From the IMG/VR virus record IMGVR_UViG_3300025133_000452, positions 1-29,605 of that record: DNA of 29,605 bases; one strand, given 5' to 3'. Source of the stretch: a virus. Below the pieces are notes generated by a model. It ran no database searches, had not been told where the DNA came from, and saw only the letters and a program-made list of their open reading frames with translations. A program made the position numbers and the translations under genes. Of this stretch, positions 1,325-19,786 are shown in pieces (the stretch's first letter is position 1; the number at the start of each line of letters is the position of its first letter).

Positions 1325-1726
1325 ATGGCATCAATACATGGAATATCAGTCAAAATACCACTGACTTATGATGCAGAAGATGGCCCATACAGGCTGAACA
1401 AAAAAACAAAAGAGGCTGTTAGGCAGAATTTGAAAAATCTTATTTTAACAGCACCGGGAGAAAGAATAATGGACCCTTCGTTTGGAGTTGGGTTAAGGAA
1501 TTTTCTATTTGAACAGATAACAGACCGTCTTTATACCAGGGTTGCAGAGAGAATCAGGAAACAGGTCAGATCATATTTACCGTTTGTTTATATAGAACAT
1601 ATAAGTTTTGATTCTATGGATACGAGGTCAGAACTTGGACCAAATGATCTACAAGTAAATATCCAATACAATATTCTTCCTCTAGATACGGAGGATACTC
1701 TTTCAATAACTGCGGAAACAAACTAA
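1325..1726 (+). CDS. 25: gp25-like baseplate wedge protein
   Basis: A 133-residue protein of the GPW/gp25 family. The family signature is visible at residues 39-63: LILTAPGERIMDPSFGVGL followed by RNFLFE. In T4, gp25 joins the baseplate wedge to the first sheath ring and helps start sheath assembly; relatives occur in P2 (gpW) and in type VI secretion (TssE). The length is typical (T4 gp25 is 132 residues). The family is often labelled 'lysozyme', but it is structural in T4 and I see no separate catalytic domain here. The ATG has AAGGA about 9 bases upstream. The next gene encodes the gp6-like wedge partner, matching T4 order 25-6. Confidence 0.93.
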   Translation: MASIHGISVKIPLTYDAEDGPYRLNKKTKEAVRQNLKNLILTAPGERIMDPSFGVGLRNFLFEQITDRLYTRVAERIRKQVRSYLPFVYIEHISFDSMDTRSELGPNDLQVNIQYNILPLDTEDTLSITAETN

Positions 1727-1753: not shown

Positions 1754-3547
1754 ATGGCAAAAAGACCCATAAATTACACCAGTAGGGATTTTGATTCGAT
1801 TAAGTCGTCTTTGGTAGACTACGCTAAACGATATTACCCAGATAGTTATAAAGACTTCAATGATGCTTCTTTCGGGTCTATGATGCTCGACACAGTGGCT
1901 TATGTTGGTGATGTTTTATCTTTCTATCTAGATTACCAGTCTAATGAGAACTTCCTAGATTCTGCTATTGAAACAAAAAACATTGCCCGTGTGGGCAGGC
2001 AACTGGGATATAGAGAGATGGGCTCCCCATCTTCAACGGGTATTTTATCTTTGTATGCGGTTGTCCCGATAGATGCGACTGGCGAAGGACCAAACCCAGA
2101 CGATATTCCTATATTGAGAAAAGACTCTTTATTTGGATCGTCTGATGGATCTAGTTTTTTACTAACAGAAAATGTAGATTTTTCTAACCCCGATAATGAA
2201 GTTGTTGTTGCTAGGGTCGATAACACAACAGGACAGCCAACACATTACGCCATTAAAGGGTTTGGAAAAATTGTGTCTGGAGAGTTAAAGCAAGAAGTTA
2301 TTGAGGTGCCCACTCACGAAAGGTTCCTGAGAGTAGCCCTGTCCGGAGCGAACATATCGGAGCTTATTTCAGTAACAGACTCGGAAGGCAGAGAGTATTT
2401 AGAAGTTCCGTTCCTGTCTCAGAATGTTATCTACTCACAGGTTCCCAACTATGATCCTGATTCATCAAACCGAGCAAAAGCACCATATAAACTTGTAGCT
2501 ACCCCCGCCCCCCGAAGGTTCACTTTAGATTTTGTAGAGGGCAATGCTTATCTTCAATTTGGGTACGGGTCTAATAGTAATTTAACTTCAGATGTTGTAG
2601 CCGACCCGGCTGAAGTCACTCTGGATACTTTTGGGCGCAGCCATATAACAGATGATTCCTTTGATCCATCCAAATTGATACAAACAGACAAATTTGGAAT
2701 ACAGCCCGCATCGGGCACAAACCTGACAATTGTATACAGATCGAACACAGCAGATAATGTCAATGTTTCTGTCGGCTCTATCGATACTGTCATCGATGCG
2801 AGTGTTGTTTTCAAAGACCGAAACTTGGTTACAGAACTTGATGATATTCTATCTTCAATAGAGTGTCACAATGATGATCCAATTTTGGGGGATGTTACAA
2901 GCGTAAGTGCAGAAGAGATGAGAATTAGAGCATATGATCATTTTGCCGCTCAAAACAGGGCAGTAACAAAACAAGATTATGCTGCCCTGTGTTATAGGAT
3001 GCCGGCAGAATTCGGCTCGATAAAAAGAATGAATATATTGAGGGATGAAGATTCTTTCAAGAGAAATTTAAACTTATATGTTTTGTCCGAAGATGTCAAT
3101 GGAAACTTTGTAAAATCTTCGTCTACCATTAAAAATAACTTAAGAAATTGGATTGCAAGGTATAAAATGATGAATGATACTGTTGATATATTTGACGGCG
3201 AATTCGTAAACCTGCAAATATCCTATGAAGTATCATCGGGTTTTGATATCAATAAGTACGATTTATTAACCCGTTGTAACGCAGTTATAAAAGACAAGCT
3301 TAGGATAAAGTATAATTTGGGCGAATCTTTTTATATATCAGACCTTTATATTGCTCTCAATGCTGTTCCTGGGGTTATAGATACAACAAACGTGGAAGTA
3401 AGCACAAAAACGGGAGCAGGGTACAGTCAATTTCCATTCAGTGTTGGCGAACACCTATCCAATGACGGCAGAGTTCTCCACGCTCCGGACAAGATTGCCT
3501 TTGAAATCAAAGATTTTGATGCCGATATAACAGGAGTAATTAAATAA
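1754..3547 (+). CDS. 6: gp6-like baseplate wedge protein (baseplate J-like)
   Basis: A 597-residue protein resembling T4 gp6 (660 residues), the wedge subunit whose dimers form the inner iris of the baseplate and which belongs with the P2 gpJ/TssF group. The N-terminus carries the characteristic segment DFNDASFGSMMLDTVAYVGD (residues 34-53), then a helix and 'ARVGRQLGY'. A second conserved region around residues 380-430 contains AQNRAVTKQDYAALCYRMP, typical of J-like wedge proteins. The start is supported by AAGAGGA about 10 bases upstream. The stop overlaps the next start as TAATG at 3545-3549, implying translational coupling. With the upstream gp25-like gene this is the firmest evidence for a contractile tail. 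Confidence 0.9.
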   Translation: MAKRPINYTSRDFDSIKSSLVDYAKRYYPDSYKDFNDASFGSMMLDTVAYVGDVLSFYLDYQSNENFLDSAIETKNIARVGRQLGYREMGSPSSTGILSLYAVVPIDATGEGPNPDDIPILRKDSLFGSSDGSSFLLTENVDFSNPDNEVVVARVDNTTGQPTHYAIKGFGKIVSGELKQEVIEVPTHERFLRVALSGANISELISVTDSEGREYLEVPFLSQNVIYSQVPNYDPDSSNRAKAPYKLVATPAPRRFTLDFVEGNAYLQFGYGSNSNLTSDVVADPAEVTLDTFGRSHITDDSFDPSKLIQTDKFGIQPASGTNLTIVYRSNTADNVNVSVGSIDTVIDASVVFKDRNLVTELDDILSSIECHNDDPILGDVTSVSAEEMRIRAYDHFAAQNRAVTKQDYAALCYRMPAEFGSIKRMNILRDEDSFKRNLNLYVLSEDVNGNFVKSSSTIKNNLRNWIARYKMMNDTVDIFDGEFVNLQISYEVSSGFDINKYDLLTRCNAVIKDKLRIKYNLGESFYISDLYIALNAVPGVIDTTNVEVSTKTGAGYSQFPFSVGEHLSNDGRVLHAPDKIAFEIKDFDADITGVIK

Positions 3548-5043
3548 TGGGTATTAGGAGATATGTGGCAGATGCTGATACCACAATAACTAACGCATTT
3601 GAAGCAAACTTATCAACAAGAGGCACGGGCTCAAATATGGGAGCTTCGGACGTATTGGAAGTATTCACAATTCACGGACAAACGTCCGCCAGTGTTAGTG
3701 CTGCTAATGCAGAACAATCCCGTGTACTCATTAAATTCCCAGTTTCAGGTTCAGACACATCCATCGAAACCCTTCACCGGGATAGGGCGAATGGAACAAT
3801 CCCCACAGCAGGAAATGTTAGTTTTTATCTTAGGGTATTTAACGCCCCACACGCAGATACACTGCCAGAGGATTTTGGCGTAGATATAAAGAAGATGACA
3901 TCGGCTTGGGAAGAAGGTCGTGGGCTTGATATGGAAGAATATCAAGATATAGGATATGCCAATTGGACTAACCGGAACAGCACAACAGCTTGGTCAGCCG
4001 GAGGAGCAGAGGGAAATTATTCAAACATAACTTCAGCAACCTTTACAAAGGGAACAGAAGATTTGGAAATAGATATTACATCTACAGTTGAGGCTTGGCT
4101 CACTACTCCCGCAGATAATCACGGGCTTATGTTGAGGAATACAAATGCTGCGATATCTGGAACCCTTGGAACATTCTATACAAAAAGATTTTTTGGTAGA
4201 GGTACAGAATTTCATTTCAAAAAGCCTGTAATAGAAGCCAGGTGGGATTCTGGCAGAAAAGACCAGAGATCAAATTTTATACTTAGCAGTAGCCTTGTGT
4301 CAGCAGCCAACAATGTCAACACCTTGTGGTTATATAATAAACTCCGTGGCGTTCTCACAGATGTACCCGCACTCACAAGCAACAATATGACTGTAACCAT
4401 TTATTCCGCTTCTCTGGACGGCGCACCGGTAGGAGACGCCGTTACAATTATTAAATCAGATGCCTCAGAAGTTCTTTCTATGACTGCCGGACGAGCGGTG
4501 GAAAATGGAGTTAATATAACCGGGGCTTATACTGCGTCTTTCACTACAGCTAACACAGCATCTGTATTTTATGATGTTTGGTCAACCGGCAGTGGAGACA
4601 GCAAGAGGACATTCCATACAGGATCTTTTGAGCCGATAAGCCAAGAGGCTGAAGTATCCGATATTTCGACGACATATGTAACAGAAATAACAAATCTCAA
4701 AGCCTCTTATTCTACGAAAGAAGAACCAAGAGTGAGAGTGTTTATTAGACCAAAAAATTGGAGTCCAAATATATACACTGTCACAAAGGCTGGTATAACA
4801 CCGGAAATAATTGATTCTTCTTATTATGAGATCTATAGATTGACCGATGACACTATCGCTATTCCCTACGGAACTGGCAGTGATGATCATACAAAGATGG
4901 CTTACGATAAGGACGGGAATTATTTTGATCTAGATATGACACTATTAGAATCTGGATACGCATATGGAATCCGATTTATATATTATCTACAGGGACAATA
5001 CAGAGAACAACCAGAGGTATTCAAATTTAGGGTTCAAGACTAA
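3547..5043 (+). CDS. DNRLRE-domain-like virion structural protein
   Basis: A 498-residue, Thr/Ser-rich, beta-type protein. The first ~235 residues look like a DNRLRE module: 'DADTTITNAF', then a 'MGASDVLEVF' stretch, a hydrophobic strand 'SRVLIKFPV', a 'VSFYLRVFNA' strand and a Trp-containing 'TSAWEEGRGLDM' loop, then 'LEIDITSTVEAWL'. Such beta-sandwich modules occur in secreted and surface proteins and may bind carbohydrate. The C-terminal half has two further beta-rich segments. No signal peptide is seen, as expected for a virion part. It overlaps the gp6-like gene by one base, with AGGAG at 3532-3536, and is followed without a gap (TAAATG) by the giant gene. A peripheral baseplate or fibre-attachment role is likely, but the exact role is unknown. 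Confidence 0.75.
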   Translation: MGIRRYVADADTTITNAFEANLSTRGTGSNMGASDVLEVFTIHGQTSASVSAANAEQSRVLIKFPVSGSDTSIETLHRDRANGTIPTAGNVSFYLRVFNAPHADTLPEDFGVDIKKMTSAWEEGRGLDMEEYQDIGYANWTNRNSTTAWSAGGAEGNYSNITSATFTKGTEDLEIDITSTVEAWLTTPADNHGLMLRNTNAAISGTLGTFYTKRFFGRGTEFHFKKPVIEARWDSGRKDQRSNFILSSSLVSAANNVNTLWLYNKLRGVLTDVPALTSNNMTVTIYSASLDGAPVGDAVTIIKSDASEVLSMTAGRAVENGVNITGAYTASFTTANTASVFYDVWSTGSGDSKRTFHTGSFEPISQEAEVSDISTTYVTEITNLKASYSTKEEPRVRVFIRPKNWSPNIYTVTKAGITPEIIDSSYYEIYRLTDDTIAIPYGTGSDDHTKMAYDKDGNYFDLDMTLLESGYAYGIRFIYYLQGQYREQPEVFKFRVQD

Positions 5044-8000
5044 ATGAGTATTAAAAAGTTATTTGATAGCCGACAAACAAGAAAAACCGGCAAGATCCTG
5101 GCTCCAGGCAAAGATAGTAACTTTGCTGGACAAGTGGAATCATCTGATCAGGTAAAAGCCGCTCTTGCGGACAAGTATGAATTTATCCCAGGGATTGATT
5201 ACTCAGATCCTGAAAACTTTGTGAAGTTCGGCTCGGCTTATAAATACTATGTTGATGCTTTGGGGTATATTGCTGACTATTATCCTTACGACGGCACATC
5301 TAAAGAAAAGATAGAGTTCAAGACAGGGCTCAATCCTCTGGAGAAATACCTCCTAGACCAAGAATATCCGACATCTACTGGATATGCAAATATGGGTTCA
5401 CCTTATGGAGCCCGTGGATCTCAGAGTTCAACAACGGGTTATTATGCAGCTTCAGCCGAATTTATACACATAAAGGGCGGACCTAATGCCAGTTCTAAAC
5501 TGAAAGCTGATGGTACTCCTGACTTCAAAGATGAGACTGCAAATGTATTCTATACCGGGTCTGCCTATGGTCGCCGGTCAAATAATCTAGAGTTTGGTGG
5601 AGCAAGCGGCAGTACAGTAGAATTTTTCTTTAAGAAGTCAACATTTAGTACAGCTACATCAACAAGAGAAGTGGTTTATGATGCCTGGAATGGCATAGCT
5701 AGCGGAACAAATGGTCATGGTCGCTTCACTATAGAAGTAAAATCTGGCTCTTTAGGCGGCGATCCTGATGTCGTTAATTCTTTCTTTATAACATATCAGC
5801 ACAATCTTAGTGGCACAATGAAGGGTGTTTTTCGGGCAGCAGTTCCAGTAACTTCAAGTGGCGCTTCTTTGGCAGATGGTAACTGGCACCATTACGCTTT
5901 TGTCCTGGGCACATCTGGAAGCACAACATCGATTGACGTTTATAAGGATGGAACTTGTTATGGCAGCCAGATTACAACCGGGTCAAATATTGTCCACGAG
6001 GTTACTGGCGCAATAGAGGCAAGGGTTGGCGCTCTAATCACCGCCCCTTCTGGCACCAGCGTCCCAGCCGGCTATGGTAAATTATCTGCTTCATTGGACG
6101 AATTCCGTGTATGGAAGGATAAAAGAAATTCAGAAGAAATTGGTAGAAATTGGTTCACCAATATCTATGGTGGAAGTAACACTACCACTGATAAACTTGG
6201 ACAATCACTTGGAGATACTAATCTAGGATTATATTATAAATTCAATGAGGGAATAACAGGTGTTGATTCAACGGATTCCGTTGTTTTAGATTATTCCGGA
6301 AGAATTTCAAATGGTGACTGGACGGGGTTCACTTCTGGTAGCAGCAGAAATACTGGATCGGCTCTGGTATCATCTTCTGCTTCTTCTTTTGAGACAGAAG
6401 ACCCAGTTGTTCGAAAAAACCACCCAGATTATACATCTAAAAAATCCTCCCTAACAGAAAAAGGTAGATCACACGACTATCAGAACAATGCAAGCTTGTT
6501 TTACTCTATGCCGGATTGGATCATTAACGAAGATTCTGAAACGAACAACGAGCTTTATAAACTAACTCAAATTATGGGTAGCTATCTTGATACCTTGTAT
6601 TCCCAAACGAGTCACCTGTTAAAGGTTGGAGATATATCATATACTAGCGGTAGTGATAAGCCTTTCCCCTATAATGAGAGATTATTGCAGTCGATGGGCT
6701 TTGAAACACCAGAGTTGTTTAGCAACGCTAGCCTTTTATCTCACTTTTTACAAAAAGATGACAAGAGGCAAATGGAGCTAAAGCTTCATAACATAAAAAA
6801 TGAAATATACAAGAACATTTATAACAACTTGGCATATCTTTACAAATCGAAAGGTACAGCCAAATCGTTTAGAAATTTAGTTCGCTGCTACGGCGTCGGG
6901 GAAGAATTATTTAAGATAAACACCTACGTCAACAACGAAACATATAAATTAGATCAAGATGAGAACAACTCTGTTGGGTGGTATCTCCCAGGCACTAGTG
7001 TCAAAAAGTATGTTGATATGACTGGTTTGGCAAATGAGGCAGATATTTCAGGCTCCATTTTCCAATATCCGGATTCATCTAACGGTGATTCCTATGGCTT
7101 TATTTCTGGCAATGTAAATTTGGATAGCTATGCTTTTACTTTAGAGGCAGAGGTATTTTTCCCAAGAAAACCCGAACCCGGCGACCAAAACTATCCATCT
7201 TTCCCAAATGTTAGTTCCTCTTTGTTTGGGTTCCACACACCCTCTGTCACAGACCCAACATCTGCCGTAACTACTTGGCACGCTAGCAATTATGGGCTAC
7301 AAGTTTATGCCGTCCACACAACGGGAACATTTTCGGAAGTACCCAACCCCATAGAAGCATCTAGGGATGCTTATTTTGTGGTCAAGAACTCGGCTGGAAC
7401 TACATTACTAACAAGTAGTGTTTTCACAAACGTATATGATAATAAGGCTTGGAAATTCGCTCTATCCCTCCGTCCAACAAAATATCCGCTCGCAGAGGAC
7501 ACAACTGGGACAACTCTGGCTGGTGCAGAAAAATATACTCTTGAATTATATGCTGTTAATTCAATTGTTGGCGAAAAACAAGAATCACTATCTGGGTCTG
7601 CTGAGGCAATTGCAGCCGGAAACCCTGGTCTTACTGCTTCATTGTCATATACTGATGGTTCAAATATTCTTACATCCGCAAAGAGAATCTACGTCGGAGC
7701 CCAAAGAACCAATTTCACAGGCTCTCTTATAGCAGCTTATGGCGCAACAGATATTAGAGCATCTGGCATAAGATATTGGAATACTTATTTGCCATCTGGG
7801 ACAGTTGATTTACACGCTTACGATTTAGACAGCTATGGGCTAAAACACCCATATAGAAATTCCTACCTCTTTGAGTCAAATGACCCAGGCGTGTTTATCC
7901 CTGAAATTCAAACCCTTGCTTTGAACTGGGATTTTATCACTGTGTCGGGAAGTAATGCAAGCGGCGAGTTTACTGTTTCAGACTTTTCCTCTGGTTCGGA

Positions 8001-11000
8001 TGGCACAACCTATGAAGGAAATTACCAGGGTGCAACATTTAGTAAACAAAACCTGAAACACCACACAGGAAAAGGGATAGGGTTTCAAAGTGGCAGTACC
8101 CCGGCGAAAAAAGAATATGTTTATTCTGGGAAACAGAGATTGCCGGAACAAATATATCCGGAAGATATGGTGGAGGTCAAGAATTCAGACGAAGAGACTT
8201 TCACCAGAGACAGCAGACCTTATAGGTTCTTTTTCGCTGTAGAAAAAAGCATGTATGACGCCATTTCAAGAGAGATGCTTGAAATGTTTGCTTCGATTGA
8301 GGACTTCAATAACCTTATAGGTGAGCCAATCAATAAATATAGGCTTAGATACAAAGATATGGAAAAACTTCGGGAGATATTCTTCCGAAGAATAGGAAAT
8401 ACACCAGACTTAGACAAGTATCTTGATTATTATAAGTGGCTAGACTCCTCAATGGGGGTTATGATTGAACAGCTATTCCCAGCTTCTGCTCAAGTGGCTG
8501 AGAATGTTCGTGTTATGGTGGAAAATCACGTTCTTGAGCGTAATAAAATTCGCCACCAATATCCTGTTTTAGAACCCCGCCCCGCTGATCCTGAAGCCGG
8601 ACTCAGGGGATCGGGTTGTGACAATTTATATGGGTGGAAGTTTAATCATGCCCCAATCACTGCAAATCAAAACACAAATTGTGGATGGTGGCACAACAGG
8701 GCAGAGAGAACACACTCAACTTTGGCTGTTGGTGTTCCTGCTGCTGTCCAAACAGCCAGAAACACTCTTCTTGGCAACACTCACCTTTTGCCCAGCCCTT
8801 ACCGGAACACAGGAGAGCGTACACCTTTCGGATCAACGAAATTTGTATGTCTTGAGGCGGCATATATCGGTGATTATATAGGTGGCGTCAATCAAGAAAT
8901 TAACAAGATAAGAAACGTCAGTCCATTTATATTTGATAATTTTGAATTAGTAGATAAATGTGATGCGCCAGACCTTTTAGCAATGACATCAGTAGCACAG
9001 TCAAGGATAGAAGATGGACAGCAAAAAACTATTGCTTTAGAAATTAAAGCTACAATCTATGCGGAAAACGTCGGCGATGATATTGAGGTAACATTTTCCC
9101 AGGCAGGGTCCACAAACTTCAACTGGAATGCTACTGGGGGGACTGCCGGCGTAGGATTGTTAACAATAAGTGCAGATTTCGCTAGCGGTATAAAACCATC
9201 TTCTCTTGCGGCAGCTTTTTCTGGTGACGCAGTGCAACTTCTTACATTATCTGATGCGGGAGACGATACACATTTTGATGATGTTCCATTGGTAGGAAAG
9301 ACTTTTACGCTTTCCGCTATAAGAAGAAAAAGAAAAGTAAATTTTAGAACAACTAAGGACGGCAAAACCTACCCTGGCGACCTAATGTCTCCATTTAGTC
9401 TGTATAGTTCTAGTGTTAACACGGGTTATCGAGCAACTTTGGTTGCTGGCGGACTAGCTTACCAAGATTTAAGCAACATACACGAAGATTCCTACCATTC
9501 GACTCAATATGAAGTCCCGATGCAAGGTCCGTTCGCCAAACAGCACGTTGGTGGGCTAATTTACAGAAATAACAAAGCTCTTTTAGAACAAAACCCTAAA
9601 CTTCGTGGCGAAGGGTTCACACTTGCTGTTGCCGGAGCGGTGGGAACGGTGGGAGACATAACTCTTCAGTCAACAGTTCCGAAGGGACAGTATTATCGAG
9701 GACTTGTAGCCAAGAGCCCACTAAATATTGCTAATATTTTGACGACAACTGCCTCTGCTGGTGAACAATCGTCTTCTTCCTATGCTGAAACAGGCCCGCC
9801 TGGTAGTTTTACTACAACTGTGCGAGTTTTGGGTAATTATACAAAAAATTATGAAGTGGTACACACCCAGGATAGAAGTATAAACAATCTGAACCTAAGA
9901 GATAATACTTCTGATTATGATGTTACAGGTATAGCTTCCCCGTATCTTGGTGGGTTGGTTGATTATGAGGTGCCTCACCAAAAATCAACATACATCCCAA
10001 ATAAGACTGTCTTTGTAGAGAGGTTTGCTGCCCCAGGTGGCATAGATACCAATACTCCTGCCTTTATGGATGTAACGTCACAACAATTTTCAGCCAATAA
10101 TGCACTTCCGTTTAGAAATTTAGGCGTCAGAAACCCACTAAAGGAATTACTCAAAACACAACAGACCTGGGGTGGCTTTACAAAGGGGGTTTATCCAGAT
10201 GTTATTACCGCCGGGCACGCCACACTAGAAGAACTCAATACTGGGAGCTATACAGTCCCGGTCGCCTCCTTTCATAAAACACAGCGGAATATGCTTACTC
10301 GCATAAAAATGGCGGTTACTCCTTTTGTTAAAACTGCCAGCATAGCAGACAATGAATTTGTGACTCACCCCATTCCCCAAGCAGACAGATATCACTGGTT
10401 TCAGTCTATCAACAAAAACGATTTGAACTATAAACCATATGATACACAGTCTCCTGCTAGAACTACCTATGCGATTTTTGTTGATCATGAATCAAAATAT
10501 CCTGAAACATTTGGTCGCCATGGTGTTTATCTCCCAGCAACAAGTTCTCTGAGTGTGGGCGAGCACGCAAAATTAGATTCAAAAGATTATAGAGAGTCTG
10601 ATGACACCGCTGGGATGTTGATGGTTACAAATACCAAGGGCGAAAAAGTTTTCCGTTGGTCTGGCGATAGCGTATTCCCAATCTGGAAAGTACTAAGAAC
10701 GGGGGAAACAGAACTTGGCAGGGTTCCGAGGGAGAGTAATACATATACAAGATATGAAGTCACGGCGGGAGAGCCAGCCCTGGGTAATTTTACGTCATCT
10801 GCCAGGTCGGTCAATGATTATTCTGCCTCTTATAGAGCAGCCCCAGTTACCTCTAAGCACAGACCCATGCTCCACTTTACTAATGCGTATGTCGGTTCCG
10901 CAGCAGAAGATATTTCGGGATCATTTACAAATGTATCCTTTAAATACACATATGGAAATGAATTCCAGGGTTTTGCCCACAGCGGGATGAACGAATATCT

Positions 11001-14000
11001 TGATTTCACTCCGTCTTTTGGACGTCGCCCATATGACGTCTTTAGAAAAATATCTCTAGAACATATTTCGGGGAACCGCCACGCTTTCCGCATCGCCGGG
11101 ATCAAAGAGATAAGAGAGTTCGTATATGAAGAAATAATATATCCAAAAGATATCTACACCTATTTGTCGGGCACAAGAGAAAGGCTATCATTCCAGAATA
11201 ACTTCTGGAGGGATGACGACACAGATACTGCTTCGGCTTCGACCATTGCCGCAATGTCAACCATGAGCGACGTTTTAACAAATTCTTCATCATATAATCC
11301 AGAATCCCCCAGGATTATTCTTGAACATGCCAACTCGCAAGGATATGTTTATCTAAGAAAAGAACAGGAGCCCCATACTCCAACTACAATTCCAGGTGGT
11401 AATGGATCTGGATCAATTTGGCCAATGGATTCATTTATTTACGCCAGATATATGGCATCCCTTGATGGTGATAGCACGATGGCATATGCTTCGGTTTTGC
11501 CGGCTGGAGAATTAATGTCTACCCTATATGGCGGGATGCAGTGGAATGGTTCAGCTTCAGCTACTCCAGCCCTCACTAGCTCTGGGGACATAAGGTCGGC
11601 GCAATATGTTTATAATATTCCTACTGTAACGTCTGCGAACAAACTTGAAGCTCGCTCTCCGGGCGGTGCCACAACCCGCCCTGCCTGGACAGCCGGACAA
11701 AACAGGAAGACTGTTGCAGGAACAAGTAGAGGCGATAGTCTAACCTCCCGGTATCCGTTTTACAATACATATGATGAATTTGCGAGCGATATAAGGGCAG
11801 CAGGGCAAGATTATACGATAATCCCAGAATACAGGGCTAGTGAACATGTTGTCTCTAGAATTTCTGCTGATGAGGGTCTTGATAGTTTCAATCTTGCACT
11901 GTTCGGCATCACCGGCTCAAGTCATTTGAGCAGTTCTACCCAAACAGGGTCTTACGAAAGACCAACTCAGAGCGCCGGACCAAATACAGCTTGGATCACT
12001 GATCCTTCTTTTATTGAGCGGTTTGGCTCAACAGAACTTTTTACCTATCTTGATGATGTTATGAGAAGAGACTCAAGTGCAAATGGATCACCAGCCAATT
12101 TGAGACTAACGGCAAAAACAGTTCAAAAATTGCTTCCATATGATGGGTTTTACCCAATGCACAGAGCTACACAGATAGCCACATTATTTTCACAGTCAAT
12201 GAGCCCGGCAACAACCTTTACTGGAGCATTTACCGGCAAGCGACAGTGGCAAAATGTTTTGAAACCATTTTTTGCACCGGGCATATTATTCAATTCGATA
12301 AAATCAGGAATTGCAGTCGATCACCCTGTTCGGGGTAAACACCCCGGTTGGACAGCAGGAACAAATAGCTGGGATGATCAATATAACTCAACGGGTGCTG
12401 ATACTTTGGCCGGCTGCCTAAGTGGAGCGATAGCTTCCGCTTCTCCTTCTTTACCACTATATATTCTCAGGAGCCAAGAAACCCCTAATGACTCTTCGAA
12501 CATGTACTGGTATAGACGCCAACGCTTTGAGTCGATTTTAGACCCAATTGGGCATATATACGCTCCTTCCTATACATATCTCAATGATGATATCAATCCA
12601 GATTTGCGTATGGACGCCACAGGATCGATAAATAGGGATGGAGCCTTAGAAAAGAAATATGTAGAATATAAGAGTGGTATCGGTAACTTTATGGGTGCCG
12701 TTCCGGAGTTCTTCTTAGAGGGACAACAAATGTCCAAACTCGTCAGCAACGTCCCTGACCCAAATCACATTACGGTGGAAGATGGTAAAACATATGTAAT
12801 GGAAGTTGTTCTTCGGAAAACCGCAAATTTCAATATGTATAGCAATCCTTATGCTTTCGGTGTTCCAACTTCAACAGGATCAGTTGATTGGGATTCCCCA
12901 GCCCTGGCTGGGCGAGTACCTGCGGGTGCAGATTGGCCGTTACATCGTGGTGAATTTGCTCCCTTTACCCCTCCTTATTTTTACGGCGATTCTGTCGCAC
13001 AAATAATATATAAGCCCGATAGCACAACTTTTGAATCTGGACATTTGCCGGCACCAGGAGTGGTAAGCCTAAAAGAAATTGTGTCACACATAAAAGGACC
13101 AGACTTTTCGGATTCTAAAATAAATTATTATAATTCTAATGATCACTTGTATGACCAATTTATAGATCCAGATACAGCCCCCACCCGTCGTCCAGATTAT
13201 GAATGGAACCGAGCCTGGCTGAATAAGATGAATATTTCTGCTAGCGTGGTATTAACAAACGAATATGATGCTATTATAGATGAATCATTCAATCTGAACC
13301 AGTGGGTTATTATGCCCAAGTGGGAATCCCCAATCTTAGATTTCCCCAGAGAGGACACAACTACGACTAGCGACTTATATAACTTCTCTTCTTCAGTCGG
13401 GAACGGAACATACAATTCAGGCTCAGGCACCGTGGATAAAACCTATGGGATGTGGCACCAATATGGGATTGAACCACAAATTGGAGAGGGCGTTAAATTA
13501 ATGGTCCGAGGGCTTCCCTCTGATTCAGTATTAAGGACAAGAACAAACCTTGTCTCCTCTGCTGCCGCCGCCACAGCCGAAGCCTCACTAATAGCGTTTG
13601 CGGATAATGGAAAATCTACATACGCTGTTGGTGATTGGGCATATGATCCAAGTTTGGACAACTATATATTATTTACAGTGAAGCGGTCAGCCTCGGTAAC
13701 ATATGCAATTGTCTTGAACAACGGCTCCAGTCCTTCGAGCTTATCCATAACGGGCGTGACAAATATAGATGTAGATATTTCCTCAGCCTCGAATGGTGCA
13801 GATGTTATAACTTCAATAGTGTCTGCTTTAGGAAGTATTGCTAATACAACTATCGAAACGACAGCACCACCCGGATCTCCATCAATTGATGGAGGCACCA
13901 TAACAATCACTAACACTAATGATGGTCCCGTCACTGATGTTTCGGTTGGCGCAGTGTATACTGTAAACTCAACTCAAGCGGTAACAGTTTCAACTCCAAT

Positions 14001-15342
14001 CCAAGGAACTGATGCCGGAACGGCATTAACTGCAACAGATCAGACATTGTTTAGTAGTGTTTCTGACGATAGCCTGGGGGATTTAGCTGCCCTGCTTGGG
14101 TTTACTTCCTCTCAAACAGAAAGAGAAGAACCAACATATAATACTGCCGACGAAAAAGTCCAGGAAACAATTAGGATCGAAACAGGTGGAAAGTCAGTTC
14201 GATTAGGAAAGCTAGCTAGCAAAAAAACGGTATATGAAGCAATCGCCGCCATTCCATATTATCTTAGCGGAGATGAACCAAATCAGAAACCTAACTTTAT
14301 CAGAATACCTCCTGTCTCTGGTAATCACACATTTGGTCCCGAAGTATTAAAGCTTATAAGCAAAATGGAAAGATATAATTTGCCACCGGCTTTACAGTAT
14401 AATTTAGATCGACTTAAAACACACGGCACCGAATCTTTGAATAGGGAAGATGGACCAGTAGCTTGTTATCTGTTTGAGTTCAAAATAGACCTCTCTAAGC
14501 AGGACTTAGCAGATATTTGGCAAGGAGTAATGCCGGAACAAAGTGTCCGTATGCTGGGCAAAAAAGGAGAAAGAACAGTCTATGGGATAGACCACACTTT
14601 GGTATACGATCACCCCTACGACCAAGACAGTGCTCAGTTTGGGGAAAGGCTTGATAGTAGGTTAAAAGATTTGATGGATGTTCAAGAGGGTTTTGAAGAG
14701 ACCGCTAATTCTTTCAGACCAGAAATACAGTGGTTAGTTTTCAAGGTAAAACAAAAAGGAATAGGCTCTTATCAAGAAATGATTACAAGAGAATTGACAC
14801 CATATATGTCAGGAGAAGATTCTACATCAAGCATAGCATCAGCAACATCGCAGTCTGAAAATATTGCAGAGAGGGGCTATAACTGGCCTTATGATTACTT
14901 CTCTTTTGTTGAAATGGCGAAAATAGAAGGACAGGTACGTTTTAGACCTCACGCCGGCCATTTAAAGGGCTTCACGGCTGAGTATCATTCTCCAGGTATT
15001 GCTGGCGGGATTGGATCTGTCACTACAGCGGAATTTGCCCCCGACGATAACGCCGATACAGAACAGGAAACGGGGGAAATTCCTCCACAACAACAAGCAG
15101 AAGAACGATATAACGGCATCGCTAGGAGTCGTTATATTGGACAAACTAATACCGTGAGTGGTCATAGTCACAAATACATACTAGACAGGAACAAGGATGG
15201 TCGAGCCTTGCCCGCCGATGGTACAGATGGACATATACATCAGGTTCTTGACGGTCGTGTGCAACTCTTCGGGTGGACAAGTGATATGGAAGAGGGGGCG
15301 GAACCCGTTTACCTAGCTCATCGCCACCACATTCGGTTTTGA
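5044..15342 (+). CDS. Giant 3432-residue baseplate/tail structural protein with LamG-like domains
   Basis: An intact 10.3-kb reading frame. Visible parts are: residues 1-150 mixed; about 150-400 a LamG/concanavalin-like sandwich (WHHYAFVLG near 281, SLDEFRVWKDK near 350, LGLYYKFNEG near 394); about 560-625 a helical segment with LYKSKGTAKSFRNLVRCYGV (KGT at 603-605), reminiscent of the P2 gpI wedge-tail family; about 660-945 a second LamG-like region (RIYVGAQRTN near 881); about 1040-1170 helices; then long Ser/Thr/Tyr-rich beta regions; about 2840-3000 a low-complexity Ig-like insertion; and a C-terminal block with NWPYDYFSFVEMAKIEG. The last 60 residues contain HSH (3374-3376), HIH (3397-3399) and HRHH (3426-3429). 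No strong Shine-Dalgarno precedes it and it abuts the previous stop, so reinitiation is likely. By position it could replace T4 gp7/gp10-type wedge components; the LamG regions suggest sugar contact. The boundaries are read by eye. Confidence 0.85.
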   Translation: MSIKKLFDSRQTRKTGKILAPGKDSNFAGQVESSDQVKAALADKYEFIPGIDYSDPENFVKFGSAYKYYVDALGYIADYYPYDGTSKEKIEFKTGLNPLEKYLLDQEYPTSTGYANMGSPYGARGSQSSTTGYYAASAEFIHIKGGPNASSKLKADGTPDFKDETANVFYTGSAYGRRSNNLEFGGASGSTVEFFFKKSTFSTATSTREVVYDAWNGIASGTNGHGRFTIEVKSGSLGGDPDVVNSFFITYQHNLSGTMKGVFRAAVPVTSSGASLADGNWHHYAFVLGTSGSTTSIDVYKDGTCYGSQITTGSNIVHEVTGAIEARVGALITAPSGTSVPAGYGKLSASLDEFRVWKDKRNSEEIGRNWFTNIYGGSNTTTDKLGQSLGDTNLGLYYKFNEGITGVDSTDSVVLDYSGRISNGDWTGFTSGSSRNTGSALVSSSASSFETEDPVVRKNHPDYTSKKSSLTEKGRSHDYQNNASLFYSMPDWIINEDSETNNELYKLTQIMGSYLDTLYSQTSHLLKVGDISYTSGSDKPFPYNERLLQSMGFETPELFSNASLLSHFLQKDDKRQMELKLHNIKNEIYKNIYNNLAYLYKSKGTAKSFRNLVRCYGVGEELFKINTYVNNETYKLDQDENNSVGWYLPGTSVKKYVDMTGLANEADISGSIFQYPDSSNGDSYGFISGNVNLDSYAFTLEAEVFFPRKPEPGDQNYPSFPNVSSSLFGFHTPSVTDPTSAVTTWHASNYGLQVYAVHTTGTFSEVPNPIEASRDAYFVVKNSAGTTLLTSSVFTNVYDNKAWKFALSLRPTKYPLAEDTTGTTLAGAEKYTLELYAVNSIVGEKQESLSGSAEAIAAGNPGLTASLSYTDGSNILTSAKRIYVGAQRTNFTGSLIAAYGATDIRASGIRYWNTYLPSGTVDLHAYDLDSYGLKHPYRNSYLFESNDPGVFIPEIQTLALNWDFITVSGSNASGEFTVSDFSSGSDGTTYEGNYQGATFSKQNLKHHTGKGIGFQSGSTPAKKEYVYSGKQRLPEQIYPEDMVEVKNSDEETFTRDSRPYRFFFAVEKSMYDAISREMLEMFASIEDFNNLIGEPINKYRLRYKDMEKLREIFFRRIGNTPDLDKYLDYYKWLDSSMGVMIEQLFPASAQVAENVRVMVENHVLERNKIRHQYPVLEPRPADPEAGLRGSGCDNLYGWKFNHAPITANQNTNCGWWHNRAERTHSTLAVGVPAAVQTARNTLLGNTHLLPSPYRNTGERTPFGSTKFVCLEAAYIGDYIGGVNQEINKIRNVSPFIFDNFELVDKCDAPDLLAMTSVAQSRIEDGQQKTIALEIKATIYAENVGDDIEVTFSQAGSTNFNWNATGGTAGVGLLTISADFASGIKPSSLAAAFSGDAVQLLTLSDAGDDTHFDDVPLVGKTFTLSAIRRKRKVNFRTTKDGKTYPGDLMSPFSLYSSSVNTGYRATLVAGGLAYQDLSNIHEDSYHSTQYEVPMQGPFAKQHVGGLIYRNNKALLEQNPKLRGEGFTLAVAGAVGTVGDITLQSTVPKGQYYRGLVAKSPLNIANILTTTASAGEQSSSSYAETGPPGSFTTTVRVLGNYTKNYEVVHTQDRSINNLNLRDNTSDYDVTGIASPYLGGLVDYEVPHQKSTYIPNKTVFVERFAAPGGIDTNTPAFMDVTSQQFSANNALPFRNLGVRNPLKELLKTQQTWGGFTKGVYPDVITAGHATLEELNTGSYTVPVASFHKTQRNMLTRIKMAVTPFVKTASIADNEFVTHPIPQADRYHWFQSINKNDLNYKPYDTQSPARTTYAIFVDHESKYPETFGRHGVYLPATSSLSVGEHAKLDSKDYRESDDTAGMLMVTNTKGEKVFRWSGDSVFPIWKVLRTGETELGRVPRESNTYTRYEVTAGEPALGNFTSSARSVNDYSASYRAAPVTSKHRPMLHFTNAYVGSAAEDISGSFTNVSFKYTYGNEFQGFAHSGMNEYLDFTPSFGRRPYDVFRKISLEHISGNRHAFRIAGIKEIREFVYEEIIYPKDIYTYLSGTRERLSFQNNFWRDDDTDTASASTIAAMSTMSDVLTNSSSYNPESPRIILEHANSQGYVYLRKEQEPHTPTTIPGGNGSGSIWPMDSFIYARYMASLDGDSTMAYASVLPAGELMSTLYGGMQWNGSASATPALTSSGDIRSAQYVYNIPTVTSANKLEARSPGGATTRPAWTAGQNRKTVAGTSRGDSLTSRYPFYNTYDEFASDIRAAGQDYTIIPEYRASEHVVSRISADEGLDSFNLALFGITGSSHLSSSTQTGSYERPTQSAGPNTAWITDPSFIERFGSTELFTYLDDVMRRDSSANGSPANLRLTAKTVQKLLPYDGFYPMHRATQIATLFSQSMSPATTFTGAFTGKRQWQNVLKPFFAPGILFNSIKSGIAVDHPVRGKHPGWTAGTNSWDDQYNSTGADTLAGCLSGAIASASPSLPLYILRSQETPNDSSNMYWYRRQRFESILDPIGHIYAPSYTYLNDDINPDLRMDATGSINRDGALEKKYVEYKSGIGNFMGAVPEFFLEGQQMSKLVSNVPDPNHITVEDGKTYVMEVVLRKTANFNMYSNPYAFGVPTSTGSVDWDSPALAGRVPAGADWPLHRGEFAPFTPPYFYGDSVAQIIYKPDSTTFESGHLPAPGVVSLKEIVSHIKGPDFSDSKINYYNSNDHLYDQFIDPDTAPTRRPDYEWNRAWLNKMNISASVVLTNEYDAIIDESFNLNQWVIMPKWESPILDFPREDTTTTSDLYNFSSSVGNGTYNSGSGTVDKTYGMWHQYGIEPQIGEGVKLMVRGLPSDSVLRTRTNLVSSAAAATAEASLIAFADNGKSTYAVGDWAYDPSLDNYILFTVKRSASVTYAIVLNNGSSPSSLSITGVTNIDVDISSASNGADVITSIVSALGSIANTTIETTAPPGSPSIDGGTITITNTNDGPVTDVSVGAVYTVNSTQAVTVSTPIQGTDAGTALTATDQTLFSSVSDDSLGDLAALLGFTSSQTEREEPTYNTADEKVQETIRIETGGKSVRLGKLASKKTVYEAIAAIPYYLSGDEPNQKPNFIRIPPVSGNHTFGPEVLKLISKMERYNLPPALQYNLDRLKTHGTESLNREDGPVACYLFEFKIDLSKQDLADIWQGVMPEQSVRMLGKKGERTVYGIDHTLVYDHPYDQDSAQFGERLDSRLKDLMDVQEGFEETANSFRPEIQWLVFKVKQKGIGSYQEMITRELTPYMSGEDSTSSIASATSQSENIAERGYNWPYDYFSFVEMAKIEGQVRFRPHAGHLKGFTAEYHSPGIAGGIGSVTTAEFAPDDNADTEQETGEIPPQQQAEERYNGIARSRYIGQTNTVSGHSHKYILDRNKDGRALPADGTDGHIHQVLDGRVQLFGWTSDMEEGAEPVYLAHRHHIRF

Positions 15343-15386
15343 TAAGATTGACCGAAATAATATTGCGGACAAAGGATACTTAGTAT

Positions 15387-16274
15387 ATGGCTAACTTTTT
15401 CAATAAAAAACAGGATGTCTTGGAAATACAGCTAACCAGGCACGGAAAGGTAATGTATTCTAAGGGAGATTTTAATCCGGAATATTATTCTTTTTATGAT
15501 ACAGATATCATATATGATGGGAAATATGCTGGGATCACAGAGATACAGAACGATATCATAACTCGTATTAAAAATGCAACGAGCACAAAGGCAGGTTATA
15601 AATTCCAGACAATCGATACCAAGCAACGCCAAGCTGACCATATATATAAACGCCCACTTGGGAACAGTCAATTGACTAAAAATAAGGCTCCTGCTTGGAG
15701 AGTTAGTCCTATCGACAATTCTCAGCCAATTACAGGCTCGGTCGATAATTCTACGCCCAATATCAAGTATAAGGGTGCTGGATCTGAATATACTGGTAAC
15801 ACAATGAGTTCAAACATTTGGCACGACCAAAAGATTCCAGAAATGAATTTCGATGTGGAATTTACATATGAGTACGACGGCGACTCACTTGAGGGTTCTC
15901 AAATTGTAAGTATTAACGAAGAGGAAAGAGTTCTTTTGTTGGTTGAAGAAAAAAATGTTCTTGATAAAAGACTAGCAAATTTTGAGATAGAAGTTTTTAT
16001 GGAAATTGACGCAAATGCAACTAATTTTTCTGATCACTGGAAGCAATTACAATTTATCAATCGCTCACTTGTTTCTGAGGAGAATATAATTTCCCTATTG
16101 AATGAGGCAGATAGTGAAATATTAGAGAATATCCCTCCCTTGACAGAAGATATAGTGGAATATTGGATAGACCTTCGGGTCGATGATGAGATTATAGAGA
16201 GATCAACTCAGGATACATCAATTCAGGAGATATATCGTCGAAATATAAGTCCCACAGGGGAGGTATGTGACTGA
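15387..16274 (+). CDS. Conserved-type virion structural protein with 'LT-x-x-G' N-terminal module
   Basis: A 295-residue protein whose family I cannot name. The N-terminus (residues ~9-50) reads VLEIQLTRHGKVMYSKG followed by F-x(4)-YSFYDTDIIYD. This resembles the start of the 361-residue protein at 23168 (LTDTGRKLLARG ... F-x-F-x-D-D-E-I-x-Y), suggesting a shared module. The middle contains a Ser/Asn/Gly-rich stretch, and the C-terminal third is acidic and helical (NEEERVLLLVEEKNVLDKRL). AAAGGA lies about 10 bases before the ATG. The stop overlaps the next start as TGATG. It sits between two very large virion proteins, so a structural role in the baseplate or tail is the best inference. Confidence 0.75.
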   Translation: MANFFNKKQDVLEIQLTRHGKVMYSKGDFNPEYYSFYDTDIIYDGKYAGITEIQNDIITRIKNATSTKAGYKFQTIDTKQRQADHIYKRPLGNSQLTKNKAPAWRVSPIDNSQPITGSVDNSTPNIKYKGAGSEYTGNTMSSNIWHDQKIPEMNFDVEFTYEYDGDSLEGSQIVSINEEERVLLLVEEKNVLDKRLANFEIEVFMEIDANATNFSDHWKQLQFINRSLVSEENIISLLNEADSEILENIPPLTEDIVEYWIDLRVDDEIIERSTQDTSIQEIYRRNISPTGEVCD

Positions 16275-19200
16275 TGGACATTAGTTATGAAGAATCTTAC
16301 CTAGAAGACGCAGTAGAAAATTGTACAACATTTGATGACCTGACTCCGGATGCTAAATTTAAGCGTGTTGTTTTAGATTTAAATCAAGAAGGGAGTGCAA
16401 ACAGCAGAGTCTTTCTTTGTTTTAGCGAAGTAATATCCAAACCGGACGCTAAGGTTTGGTTTGATCTTATCGATGATCGTGGATATGCAGGATTGAGAAT
16501 TAGAATAATTCAAAGCACAAATAGACAACTAACCTCAACTTTATATAATTTGTCTCAATATATCAATGAAGATAAAACAACAGTCCCAGATATACAATTA
16601 CCGCTTGGATATTGGTCGCTGCTTGCACCAAAATTGGATCTTCGCCTGGCACCGGGCGTCAAAGTATTTGATAAATCAATCAAAGAAATGATCGCAGAAG
16701 AAGATCCAGGGGAAAGAACTTATATAACACAAGAAGAAGAAAATGCCTCAATCATAAAATCATTTGATTTCAGCGCACTTATGGGAACAGAGACTAGTTC
16801 TCAGTTTGTTTTAGCTAGAGATGACGAGCCTGAGCATCTTTCATATTTCGCTTTTGCATATTTGGATATGGAAGAAGTCGCCGCCGAATATGGGATTGAC
16901 ATAAACCAAGATCTCGATGTTTATAAATTTCCATATGGGCAAATAAGTTTCATAAATGTCCTTGGGGATTATAGTTTAAATCCGGAAGTAAAATCCGGAC
17001 CCGGAAGATCGCTTTTGTGCGATTTCCGAAATCTAAGAAGATTCAGAGACGAAGCATCTGTTGATGGAATTTTTAAGGATACCTATAGCGAAATAAGGAA
17101 TTCGGTCTCCGGATTGATTGGATTGTCAAAAGAAGAAACGAATAGACTCTTGGGAGAACGAGGGCACTTTACGGAATTATTTCACACAAAAGACCAGCAA
17201 GATAATATACGATTTTTGTTTGGTATGGACATGGGAACGTTTGCTAGTAAGAATTGTGTCTACCCTTTGCTTCTTGGAAGTAACAAATTGGTTGAAATAG
17301 CCACAGGAAACTCGGAGTCATCAGTATTTGAGTTAAAAGACATGAGGATGAGAAAAATAAGGCTAAAAGATTCTTCCTTGCTCAACACAGGGCTTGGGGG
17401 AGATACTAGTTTAGAGATTTTCTCTGAAGATTCTGATTATAGTTATGTCGGTGCCTGGGGAGACTTTGCAAATCCAATTCGTAAAGAGGGAAAACTAAGG
17501 GCGATAGAGGCGCAGATTCAGAGGGATACGGACACAAACAAAGTTAGCTTTTTTTGTGGCAAAGATAATTTAGAGAAAAATCCGACAGAACCAGGGAAAT
17601 ACCTTTATCGGATAGAAACCACTTTCCTAGATCACTCCCCAGAGATAATCAAGAAGTTAGTATTTAAACTGGACAGACAAGTTGAGATCATCAGACAAGC
17701 GCATATGCAGATTGCTGGACGCCATGTTTTTAATGATGACTTTGTAAGAGGGGAAGACAAGCCTGGAGCAATAGCCACCAGAACAACCGGCGGGTATTTT
17801 CTCAAGGAAGAGGGAAGTACATTAGTTAGTCAACAGGAAGCCTTTGGCAATCTGAGGGCTGTAATCGAAGCTCCGGCTACGACTATAGCGGAGATTGCGG
17901 AAGAAATAGCAATTTTTGCTGGGATTACTAGACAGGACACCAGGATCACTCTTAGGTCATTTATTCTGAGTTTGCTAGATACCCTAAGTCCAGATGCCTC
18001 AGGCGAGGTTATGTCTTCTCTAACAGAAATGGCAGACTTGGGTTCATATTTATCAAGACAATTGAGAAATTCAATCAAACGTGCTTTGGTAGAATTTACA
18101 AGCGACGATTACCAGGGTGATTTGGGTTCGGGCACATCCGCTAACGTTGTAGGTGGAAAACGATTCATCAAAGACACTCACGACTTTCGAAGTGTCGTAA
18201 AAAACCACAAAACACACCAAACAGGAATTGATTTACTTTCTTGGTGGGACACACGAGGCGAAGGGTATGGCATAAAGACGTATAGTTATGATTTTTATAC
18301 CCAACGATTAGAGGGCGAAATATCCAAATTCTATCGGAACGCAAGCAGAAACCAAGCTCATACATTCTCCAATTTGTGGTCATACTTGACACCCGCTAAA
18401 ATTAACATAGCAGGAAGAAAGCCTCTGAGCCCCTATGTCTTTGCTACCAACCCTAATCACGACACATATTCATATGAAAAATATGCAGATTTACAAGCAG
18501 ACCTCTATGATTATAAATTCAATTTGTCTTCTATTCCAAAATATGAAGTCCATCAGCCCTCCTACTCAGGGCACGACCCAAATGAAGATAGAAACCCCCC
18601 AGAACACTATACAAATAAAACGATCACACAACTTCTAAATCACCATTGTGAAATAGAAGTAGATGCAGTTGAAAAAACTTATATTATAGGAGAACAAGAA
18701 AATCTTCCAAAGTATGACCCTTCTTCTAGATCAGACGGGGGTCACGCTGGTGGTTTGGACCAAATTATGGGGGCAGCGGCTAATACAGCAGATGAATCCC
18801 TACAGAGCGCAGCCGAAGCATCGTTCGGAGACAATTCCAGTTCTGGATATTTTGATAATTATAAAGATACCCAGACAGGAATGTATGGAACAGTCGTACA
18901 AAAAGAGGTTGTCCCGATGGTAACAAGAATATTTTATACCCTAATGGGGGAAATGATATTGACGCCTCATACTGGTGAATATGCTAGTGCAAAGTTCAAT
19001 TCATTTGCTATGGTCGAAGACGAAGTTCTCCCTTACGAAGAAGAAGTCTCTCTTCCGATGCAATTGCGTGCATTGACGGGGATGGACAAATATCGTCCAA
19101 ATATAAACGGTGGGGAAAATCCCACCTACAAACAGCCAAGAATAAAATCAGAACCTTATACCGAAATATTACCCGAAAGATCCATTTCTGCAATTGTGAA

Positions 19201-19786
19201 ACAACAGGGAAATACAGTAGACTTTGCAGAAGTTTATGATATTATGAAAGATCATTCTAAATTTGCACCATTCTGGTACAATTTTAAGCATATTTACGAG
19301 GTGCAATTTTTATCCGGTTATAACGGAAATATTAAAGAGCCAATATGGACTACACTAACATCTCAGGGAATAGGGTACAATTCCGAATCCAAGCCAATCC
19401 TGTGTAGGGTTCAGAGGTATACCAATCAGAGGTATGGTGCTGAATCCCTATCCAGTACAGCCCTACCCATATATAATGAGTATTTCTTTTTAGAAAGTCA
19501 GGGATCAAAAGCCAAATATTCCGGAACAGGTGGCACCGCCGGGGTGGAAATAGAAAAAGGAACATCAAGATCTAGTGGACGCCCCAGCCACACCCATGAG
19601 TATCTTTTTGGAGCAGAAGTAACCGAAAATACTACGATAATCCCTACGCACCGATATTACGAGGCAACTCATAACCACTCAATCGGGAAGAGCGGGGGTC
19701 GAGATTTTGCCTATTGGGCACCGGTAGATCCAGTCAACAACCCACACCTCAAACATTATCATTATTTTCATGACGACGATGGATAA
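16274..19786 (+). CDS. Large virion structural protein with HxH-rich C-terminus
   Basis: A 1170-residue protein with no domain I can name confidently. About residues 530-605 are strongly helical and Ala/Glu-rich (TTIAEIAEEIAIFAGI and onward); the rest is mixed alpha/beta and rich in Tyr, Asn and Asp. The C-terminal 70 residues are histidine-rich: HTH (1106-1108), H1126, HNH (1133-1135), H1158 and HYHYFH (1161-1166), followed by DDDG. HxH pairs of this kind coordinate iron in the T4 gp37 fibre tip, so a metal-binding tip or trimerisation element is plausible. GGGGAGG lies about 10 bases upstream, inside the previous gene, and the TGATG overlap implies coupling. Context points to a baseplate, fibre or tail-tip component. 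Confidence 0.78.
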   Translation: MDISYEESYLEDAVENCTTFDDLTPDAKFKRVVLDLNQEGSANSRVFLCFSEVISKPDAKVWFDLIDDRGYAGLRIRIIQSTNRQLTSTLYNLSQYINEDKTTVPDIQLPLGYWSLLAPKLDLRLAPGVKVFDKSIKEMIAEEDPGERTYITQEEENASIIKSFDFSALMGTETSSQFVLARDDEPEHLSYFAFAYLDMEEVAAEYGIDINQDLDVYKFPYGQISFINVLGDYSLNPEVKSGPGRSLLCDFRNLRRFRDEASVDGIFKDTYSEIRNSVSGLIGLSKEETNRLLGERGHFTELFHTKDQQDNIRFLFGMDMGTFASKNCVYPLLLGSNKLVEIATGNSESSVFELKDMRMRKIRLKDSSLLNTGLGGDTSLEIFSEDSDYSYVGAWGDFANPIRKEGKLRAIEAQIQRDTDTNKVSFFCGKDNLEKNPTEPGKYLYRIETTFLDHSPEIIKKLVFKLDRQVEIIRQAHMQIAGRHVFNDDFVRGEDKPGAIATRTTGGYFLKEEGSTLVSQQEAFGNLRAVIEAPATTIAEIAEEIAIFAGITRQDTRITLRSFILSLLDTLSPDASGEVMSSLTEMADLGSYLSRQLRNSIKRALVEFTSDDYQGDLGSGTSANVVGGKRFIKDTHDFRSVVKNHKTHQTGIDLLSWWDTRGEGYGIKTYSYDFYTQRLEGEISKFYRNASRNQAHTFSNLWSYLTPAKINIAGRKPLSPYVFATNPNHDTYSYEKYADLQADLYDYKFNLSSIPKYEVHQPSYSGHDPNEDRNPPEHYTNKTITQLLNHHCEIEVDAVEKTYIIGEQENLPKYDPSSRSDGGHAGGLDQIMGAAANTADESLQSAAEASFGDNSSSGYFDNYKDTQTGMYGTVVQKEVVPMVTRIFYTLMGEMILTPHTGEYASAKFNSFAMVEDEVLPYEEEVSLPMQLRALTGMDKYRPNINGGENPTYKQPRIKSEPYTEILPERSISAIVKQQGNTVDFAEVYDIMKDHSKFAPFWYNFKHIYEVQFLSGYNGNIKEPIWTTLTSQGIGYNSESKPILCRVQRYTNQRYGAESLSSTALPIYNEYFFLESQGSKAKYSGTGGTAGVEIEKGTSRSSGRPSHTHEYLFGAEVTENTTIIPTHRYYEATHNHSIGKSGGRDFAYWAPVDPVNNPHLKHYHYFHDDDG

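Follow-up and report, generated by a model that had tools for sequence, protein, structure and literature searches.

A candidate gp7/gpI-type baseplate wedge protein of giant size, with insertions and a C-terminal extension, in an uncultured phage of the T4 superfamily

The long open reading frame of the 29.6-kb window (the whole stretch of DNA that was analysed, from an IMG/VR virus record) has an ATG start and 3432 codons with no internal stops, and it encodes a Ser/Gly/Thr-rich protein. The protein probably represents a gp7/gpI-type wedge subunit of a T4-superfamily contractile-tailed phage that has been enlarged by insertion and extension; a probability of about 0.75 is given to this reading. 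Positions of the genes and of the segments of the giant protein are listed in Table 1.

Table 1. Positions of genes and protein segments in the window
Feature	Position	Strand	Basis
gp25-like sheath initiator / wedge protein	1325..1726	+	Pfam GPW_gp25, E 1.3e-13
gp6-like wedge protein	1754..3547	+	phrog_219, E 5e-19
DNRLRE-domain protein; a Mel-JY01 counterpart exists	3547..5043	+	NF033679, E 1.3e-5
Giant gp7/gpI-type baseplate wedge protein (candidate), 3432 aa	5044..15342	+	ORF, relatives, gene order
N-terminal core block, residues ~41-120	5164..5403	+	Residues 43-65 align with immuto ~286-310
LamG-like insertion 1, residues ~160-450 (with the Pfam match at 269-366)	5521..6393	+	Laminin_G_3, E 7.4e-8
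gpI/gp7-type wedge domain, residues 455-650	6406..6993	+	Profile matches, compact orthologues
KGT motif, residues 603-605	6850..6858	+	69-protein alignment
Insertion 2, possibly LamG-like, residues ~660-1060	7021..8223	+	Weak likeness to LamG region 1
Second half of wedge core, residues ~1060-1215	8221..8688	+	960-1215 profile matches orthologues
Poorly conserved linker, residues ~1216-1440	8689..9363	+	Gene split in L035, L037 and L053
Middle module, residues ~1441-1880	9364..10683	+	Gene split close to the end of the module in L058, L063 and L076
C-terminal module, residues ~1881-3320, ending in YNWPYDYFSFVE	10684..15003	+	
Poorly conserved His-containing tail, residues 3321-3432	15004..15339	+	
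p295, conserved gene of structural region, downstream of giant	15387..16274	+	Recurring gene order

The giant gene is in the slot that follows the gp25-like and gp6-like genes, with a DNRLRE gene intervening between gp6 and the giant. The DNRLRE gene product is below the curated cut-off of NF033679 (25.4 vs. 34 bits). The order gp25, gp6, DNRLRE, giant and p295 is repeated at approximately 79 fetched loci. An earlier reading made from the sequence alone, here the sequence-only reading, had described a single 3432-residue gene behind gp25-like, gp6-like and DNRLRE genes, and this description is borne out by the intact open reading frame and the recurring order. Immediately upstream of gp25 in the genome of a relative, L018, is a gene that encodes 2462 aa (L219:17156–20000 and L220:1–4544; G001 57156–64544). 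The N-terminal part of its product matches endolysin PHROGs, and a role in the hub or as a tail lysozyme is likely. The gene occupies the position of the first open reading frame of the window, which is truncated at its 5' end.

An IMG/VR scan with the giant protein shows that relatives are encoded on 216 stretches, and the open reading frame is therefore a real coding sequence. Most of the 79 retained loci match across residues 1–3300, with best-segment identities of 28–54%. Complete copies in a single open reading frame (n = 67) are 2783–4019 aa in length, with a median of 3234. A tblastn comparison of the giant with 50,697 cultured-phage records gave zero matches, and annotated relatives were then found by way of the gp6-like protein. 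The 184,913-base record of L018 encodes T4-type terminase gp17, sheath gp18 and portal gp20, together with protease gp21, capsid gp23 and neck gp13 of the same type. On the basis of this gene set, the giant-bearing group is taken as contractile-tailed and as part of the T4 superfamily. Loci L201–L205 look like pieces of phage DNA that ended up in bacterial and archaeal MAGs through binning or joining, and for this reason no host is proposed from them. L202 (a WOR-3 MAG chromosome, ORF 8669–13348) has a wedge-core relative with a stretch of unknown bases behind it, after which the sequence is unrelated; it is probably a phage fragment joined into the bacterial chromosome.

Alignment of 69 proteins shows that residues 1–1200 are well conserved, except for portions of the LamG regions. 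The peak of conservation is at residues 601–640 and contains the KGT motif, where the invariance of K603 and G604 exceeds 95%; the motif pointed out in the sequence-only reading is real and lies within the most conserved block of the protein. For the slice of residues 455–660, 29 of 61 members match TIGR02242, and just three match the next family. These matches are below the curated cut-off, i.e., the window slice scores 12.2 vs. 51.85 bits (E 0.14), and the best member has an E value of 0.0012. Pfam Tail_P2_I (PF09684) is matched by four members (best 0.07), also below its curated cut-off. The wedge domain reaches no curated family cut-off in slice scans with Pfam, PHROGs and NCBIfam, and the giant is not filed as a member of TIGR02242 or PF09684. 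There is no match to TIGR02242 at E 0.01 in the genomes of 10 complete or partial relatives, and hmmsearch with the family profile against T4, P2 and Mu open reading frames shows nothing significant.

Profile comparisons with T4 gp7 and P2 gpI land on the KG motifs of these proteins. The profile-profile score is 28.1 with gp7 of T4-like phages and cyanophages, 25.1 with gpI/TIGR02242 and 33.4 with gp7 and gpI/TIGR02242 combined; the maxima of 40 column shuffles are 20.1, 17.2 and 15.4, respectively. Because the gp7 and gpI/TIGR02242 templates were trimmed to the surroundings of the KG motif, a match at this place is favoured; the scores above the shuffles thus support homology of the KGT block and are no test of the whole domain. 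With single-sequence templates of T4, P2 and Mu proteins, including T4 gp7 and P2 gpI, hhalign is no better than reversed controls. When the whole protein, profile A1 and profile A5 are searched by sequence against solved structures, no wedge protein is found. AlphaFold2 produces poor models, both for residues 455–660 (pLDDT 61, no Foldseek match with E <= 0.001) and for the immuto core with 38 sequences (pLDDT 44). The proposed wedge assignment is based on sequence profiles and not on structure.

The gp6-like protein has its nearest annotated relatives in Flavobacterium phage immuto, Microcystis phage Mel-JY01 and the uncultured phage LR756508, which likewise top the list for the terminase of L018. 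Downstream of gp25 and gp6, these phages encode orthologues of 1265 aa (immuto gp109, YP_010114574.1), 1336 aa (Mel-JY01 WWT39511) and 1400 aa (LR756508). The orthologues are unannotated or, as with gp109 and WWT39511, annotated as hypothetical proteins. Both halves of the wedge core are homologous. The KGT-domain profile matches immuto, Mel-JY01 and LR756508 with E values of 1e-18, 2.5e-15 and 6e-16, and the profile of residues 960–1215 with E values of 3e-4, 3e-9 and 7e-14. The N-terminal block is present in immuto as well, with a score of 30.1 that none of 40 shuffles attains (maximum 20.2). The KGT domain of immuto extends to residue 582, and the second half of the core starts at 664. The alignment thus places approximately 80 residues where the window protein holds insertion 2, of approximately 400 residues. 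The Mel-JY01 orthologue has a part of this insertion (695–836). The C-terminal ~2200 residues of the giant are absent from all three orthologues, and the modules after residue 1440 have no match in them. The compact orthologues keep the core but not these C-terminal residues, and both LamG regions are missing from immuto as well; the giant is therefore an ordinary wedge core to which insertions and an extension have been added. The wedge part of the original proposal thus finds support in the slot, the KGT block, the matches to the gp7 and gpI/TIGR02242 profiles relative to shuffles, and the compact orthologues.

LamG region 1 is the sole segment of the giant that is above a family cut-off in the Pfam, PHROGs and NCBIfam slice scans. 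As a slice it scores 33.1 bits with Laminin_G_3 (PF13385; cut-off 27.6), but 24.6 bits when scored with the whole protein. As the N-terminal block is aligned with immuto, this region is positioned between two core blocks. The sequence-only reading had proposed two LamG-like regions. The first holds as a slice; the second (residues 660–1060) has no Pfam LamG match in 10 members, and its likeness to region 1 in a profile comparison is weak (24.4 vs. a shuffled maximum of 21.3). The LamG region 1 profile has no confident match in the wedge proteins of immuto, Mel-JY01 and LR756508, and the profile of region 2 matches only Mel-JY01 of the three (2.6e-5). Other members have LamG copies near residues 1520–1930 (L027, L029 and L039) or an additional or shifted copy at 520–690 (L026 and L033).

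Some relatives have two adjacent genes instead of one chain. In L035, L037 and L053, similarity of the first gene stops at window residue 1174–1243, which is the end of the conserved N-terminal core, and this position of the break shows that the core is separable from the remainder of the chain. Other gene breaks are at ~1786–1879 (L058, L063 and L076), ~2061–2238 (L021) and ~932–956 (L060). These natural splits, along with the insertions relative to immuto, favour the earlier suggestion that a wedge scaffold is fused with extra parts. In L053, approximately 3.2 kb (13436–16598) separate the wedge-core gene from that of the remainder.

The C-terminal two thirds of the giant match no known family in the Pfam, PHROGs and NCBIfam slices. 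Conservation is low at residues 1240–1440, 2841–3040 and 3321–3432 in the 69-protein alignment. The sequence NWPYD (3280–3284) is present in 69 of 69 giants; where the gene is split, the downstream half carries it as well. It is unlikely that the giant is gp7 fused in one chain to further baseplate proteins, for example gp8, gp9 or gp10. The division of the chain at several places in relatives is in agreement with such a fusion, as are the absence of T4 gp8–gp12 relatives from the L018 genome by phmmer and a faint likeness of segment c2 (residues 2620–2850) to gp8, with a score of 19.9 vs. a shuffled maximum of 17.1. However, this likeness is a single short match of 23 columns among ten tests, and for the middle module and the remaining C-terminal modules, scores with gp8 and gp9/gp10 do not exceed those of shuffles.

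It is improbable that the giant is a tail fibre, spike or adhesin beside the wedge genes with a coincidental KGT likeness. A LamG-like region, the Ser/Gly/Thr-rich sequence, the poor conservation of much of the C-terminal part and the lack of a curated wedge match would all suit such a protein. A fibre gene is expected to preserve the adhesin part and not the core, yet conservation is highest in the KGT domain and not in the lectin part. The orthologues retain the KGT domain, with both LamG regions missing from immuto, and the gp7/gpI profile match is above all shuffles. A precursor that is cut during assembly into separate wedge and attachment proteins is very improbable. The splits in L035, L037, L053, L058, L063 and L076 show that the pieces can be separate chains, and the linker at 1216–1440 is poorly conserved, but the uninterrupted open reading frame is retained in 67 aligned copies. 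An assembly artefact or chimera as the source of the length, which a few related contigs that appear broken (L040) might suggest, is refuted by the same full-length architecture on dozens of independent contigs.

As a candidate wedge subunit with additions, the giant is comparable to proteins of cultured marine cyanophages. The same slot is filled by proteins of 5195 aa in Prochlorococcus phage P-SSM2 (gp7, AAX44489, annotated 'baseplate wedge initiator'), 7022 aa in S-MbCM6 (T4-GC_108) and 8573 aa in P-RSM6 (CPXG_00128). The sequence-only reading had expected an unusually large baseplate; these lengths show that the size of the window giant is not new. The P-RSM6 protein (L324:8908–34629), from a genome of 192 kb, carries no annotation beyond 'hypothetical protein'. 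Like the window giant, the cyanophage proteins are encoded directly after gp25 and gp6 and have the gp7 KG block, which the T4 gp7 profile matches in all three. A weaker second match, to the second half of the core, is present in P-SSM2 (iE 0.23) and P-RSM6 (iE 0.0011), where this half is apparently ~2300–2850 residues beyond the KG block. Giant gp7-slot proteins have thus been deposited already, apparently with insertions inside the gp7 core. The cyanophage proteins differ in being much larger, and beyond the KGT block they share only weak LamG-like matches with the window protein. Full-length homology to P-SSM2 gp7 (the T4-GC 107 type) was not found; the KGT block alone (iE 0.36) is in place. 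No paper that discusses the giant cyanophage gp7-slot proteins was found, and literature on immuto and cyanophage gp7 yielded no virion proteomics of these proteins.

T4 gp7 (1032 aa, the length given in the sequence-only reading), P2 gpI (176 aa) and TssG are similar to the giant in the slot after gp6/gpJ, the KG(T/I) block and the profile match. The giant is 3.3 times the length of T4 gp7 and its insertions differ. TssF/TssG correspond to gp6/gp7 and gpJ/gpI, and build a scaffold of 2:1 composition that contains a three-helix bundle and a trifurcation (PMC6300606). In AlgoCIS, the spike is enclosed in a cage of carbohydrate-binding modules that belong to a wedge protein, and the gp7-like part has been called an evolutionary hotspot (PMC8894135). 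The enlargement of a wedge component, in AlgoCIS (Alg11/Alg12) by carbohydrate-binding modules, is a feature shared with the giant (PMC8894135). AlgoCIS differs in that the modules are in Alg11 and not in the gp7-like part, and in that it is a bacterial injection system and not a phage. XM1 gp17, with a length of just 242 aa, holds the tail spikes by means of its flexible parts (PMC10457771).

By analogy with T4, a wedge core in three pieces (residues ~41–120, 455–650 with the KGT block, and 1060–1215) would join two molecules of the gp6-like neighbour in the wedge scaffold. Large domains are inserted between the core pieces, the first with a LamG/ConA-like fold, and ~2200 further residues are added at the C-terminus. 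The added parts may project from the wedge periphery, where they would most likely contact cell-surface glycans or anchor fibres, on the model of what is proposed for the Alg11 carbohydrate-binding insertions and of the flexible parts of XM1 gp17. It is a speculative and rather doubtful possibility that a large, uncultured clade of T4-superfamily phages carries carbohydrate-binding domains in its wedge scaffold protein, such that, under the baseplate, six wedges together make a skirt or cage that bears lectins. The skirt might then sense the host and pass the signal straight to the gp6/gp7 core. Glycan binding and the lectin skirt are both speculation of this tentative kind.

The assignment would give a name, gp7/gpI wedge subunit, to a widespread unannotated protein of uncultured and cultured phages that includes immuto gp109 and Mel-JY01 WWT39511. 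It also shows how this subunit grows from 1265 aa to more than 4000, through domains placed between the core pieces and residues added at the C-terminus; cyanophages offer a parallel, with lengths of up to 8573 aa. Should the LamG parts bind glycans of the host, host recognition by these phages would be partly within the wedge and not in fibres alone.

His-rich tails with HSH/HTH-x-Y end both the giant (15004–15339) and p1170 (16274–19783): HSHKYILDRNKDGR; HTHEYLFGAEVTEN. These tails are possibly metal-binding. Two HxH within the last 120 residues are present in none of the complete giant relatives tested. Further downstream, p407 and p405 (window positions 24268–26708) match several tandem genes of immuto, Mel-JY01 and LR756508, mainly through the C-terminal parts of p407 and p405, which suggests that a fibre-type family is repeated downstream of the wedge genes.
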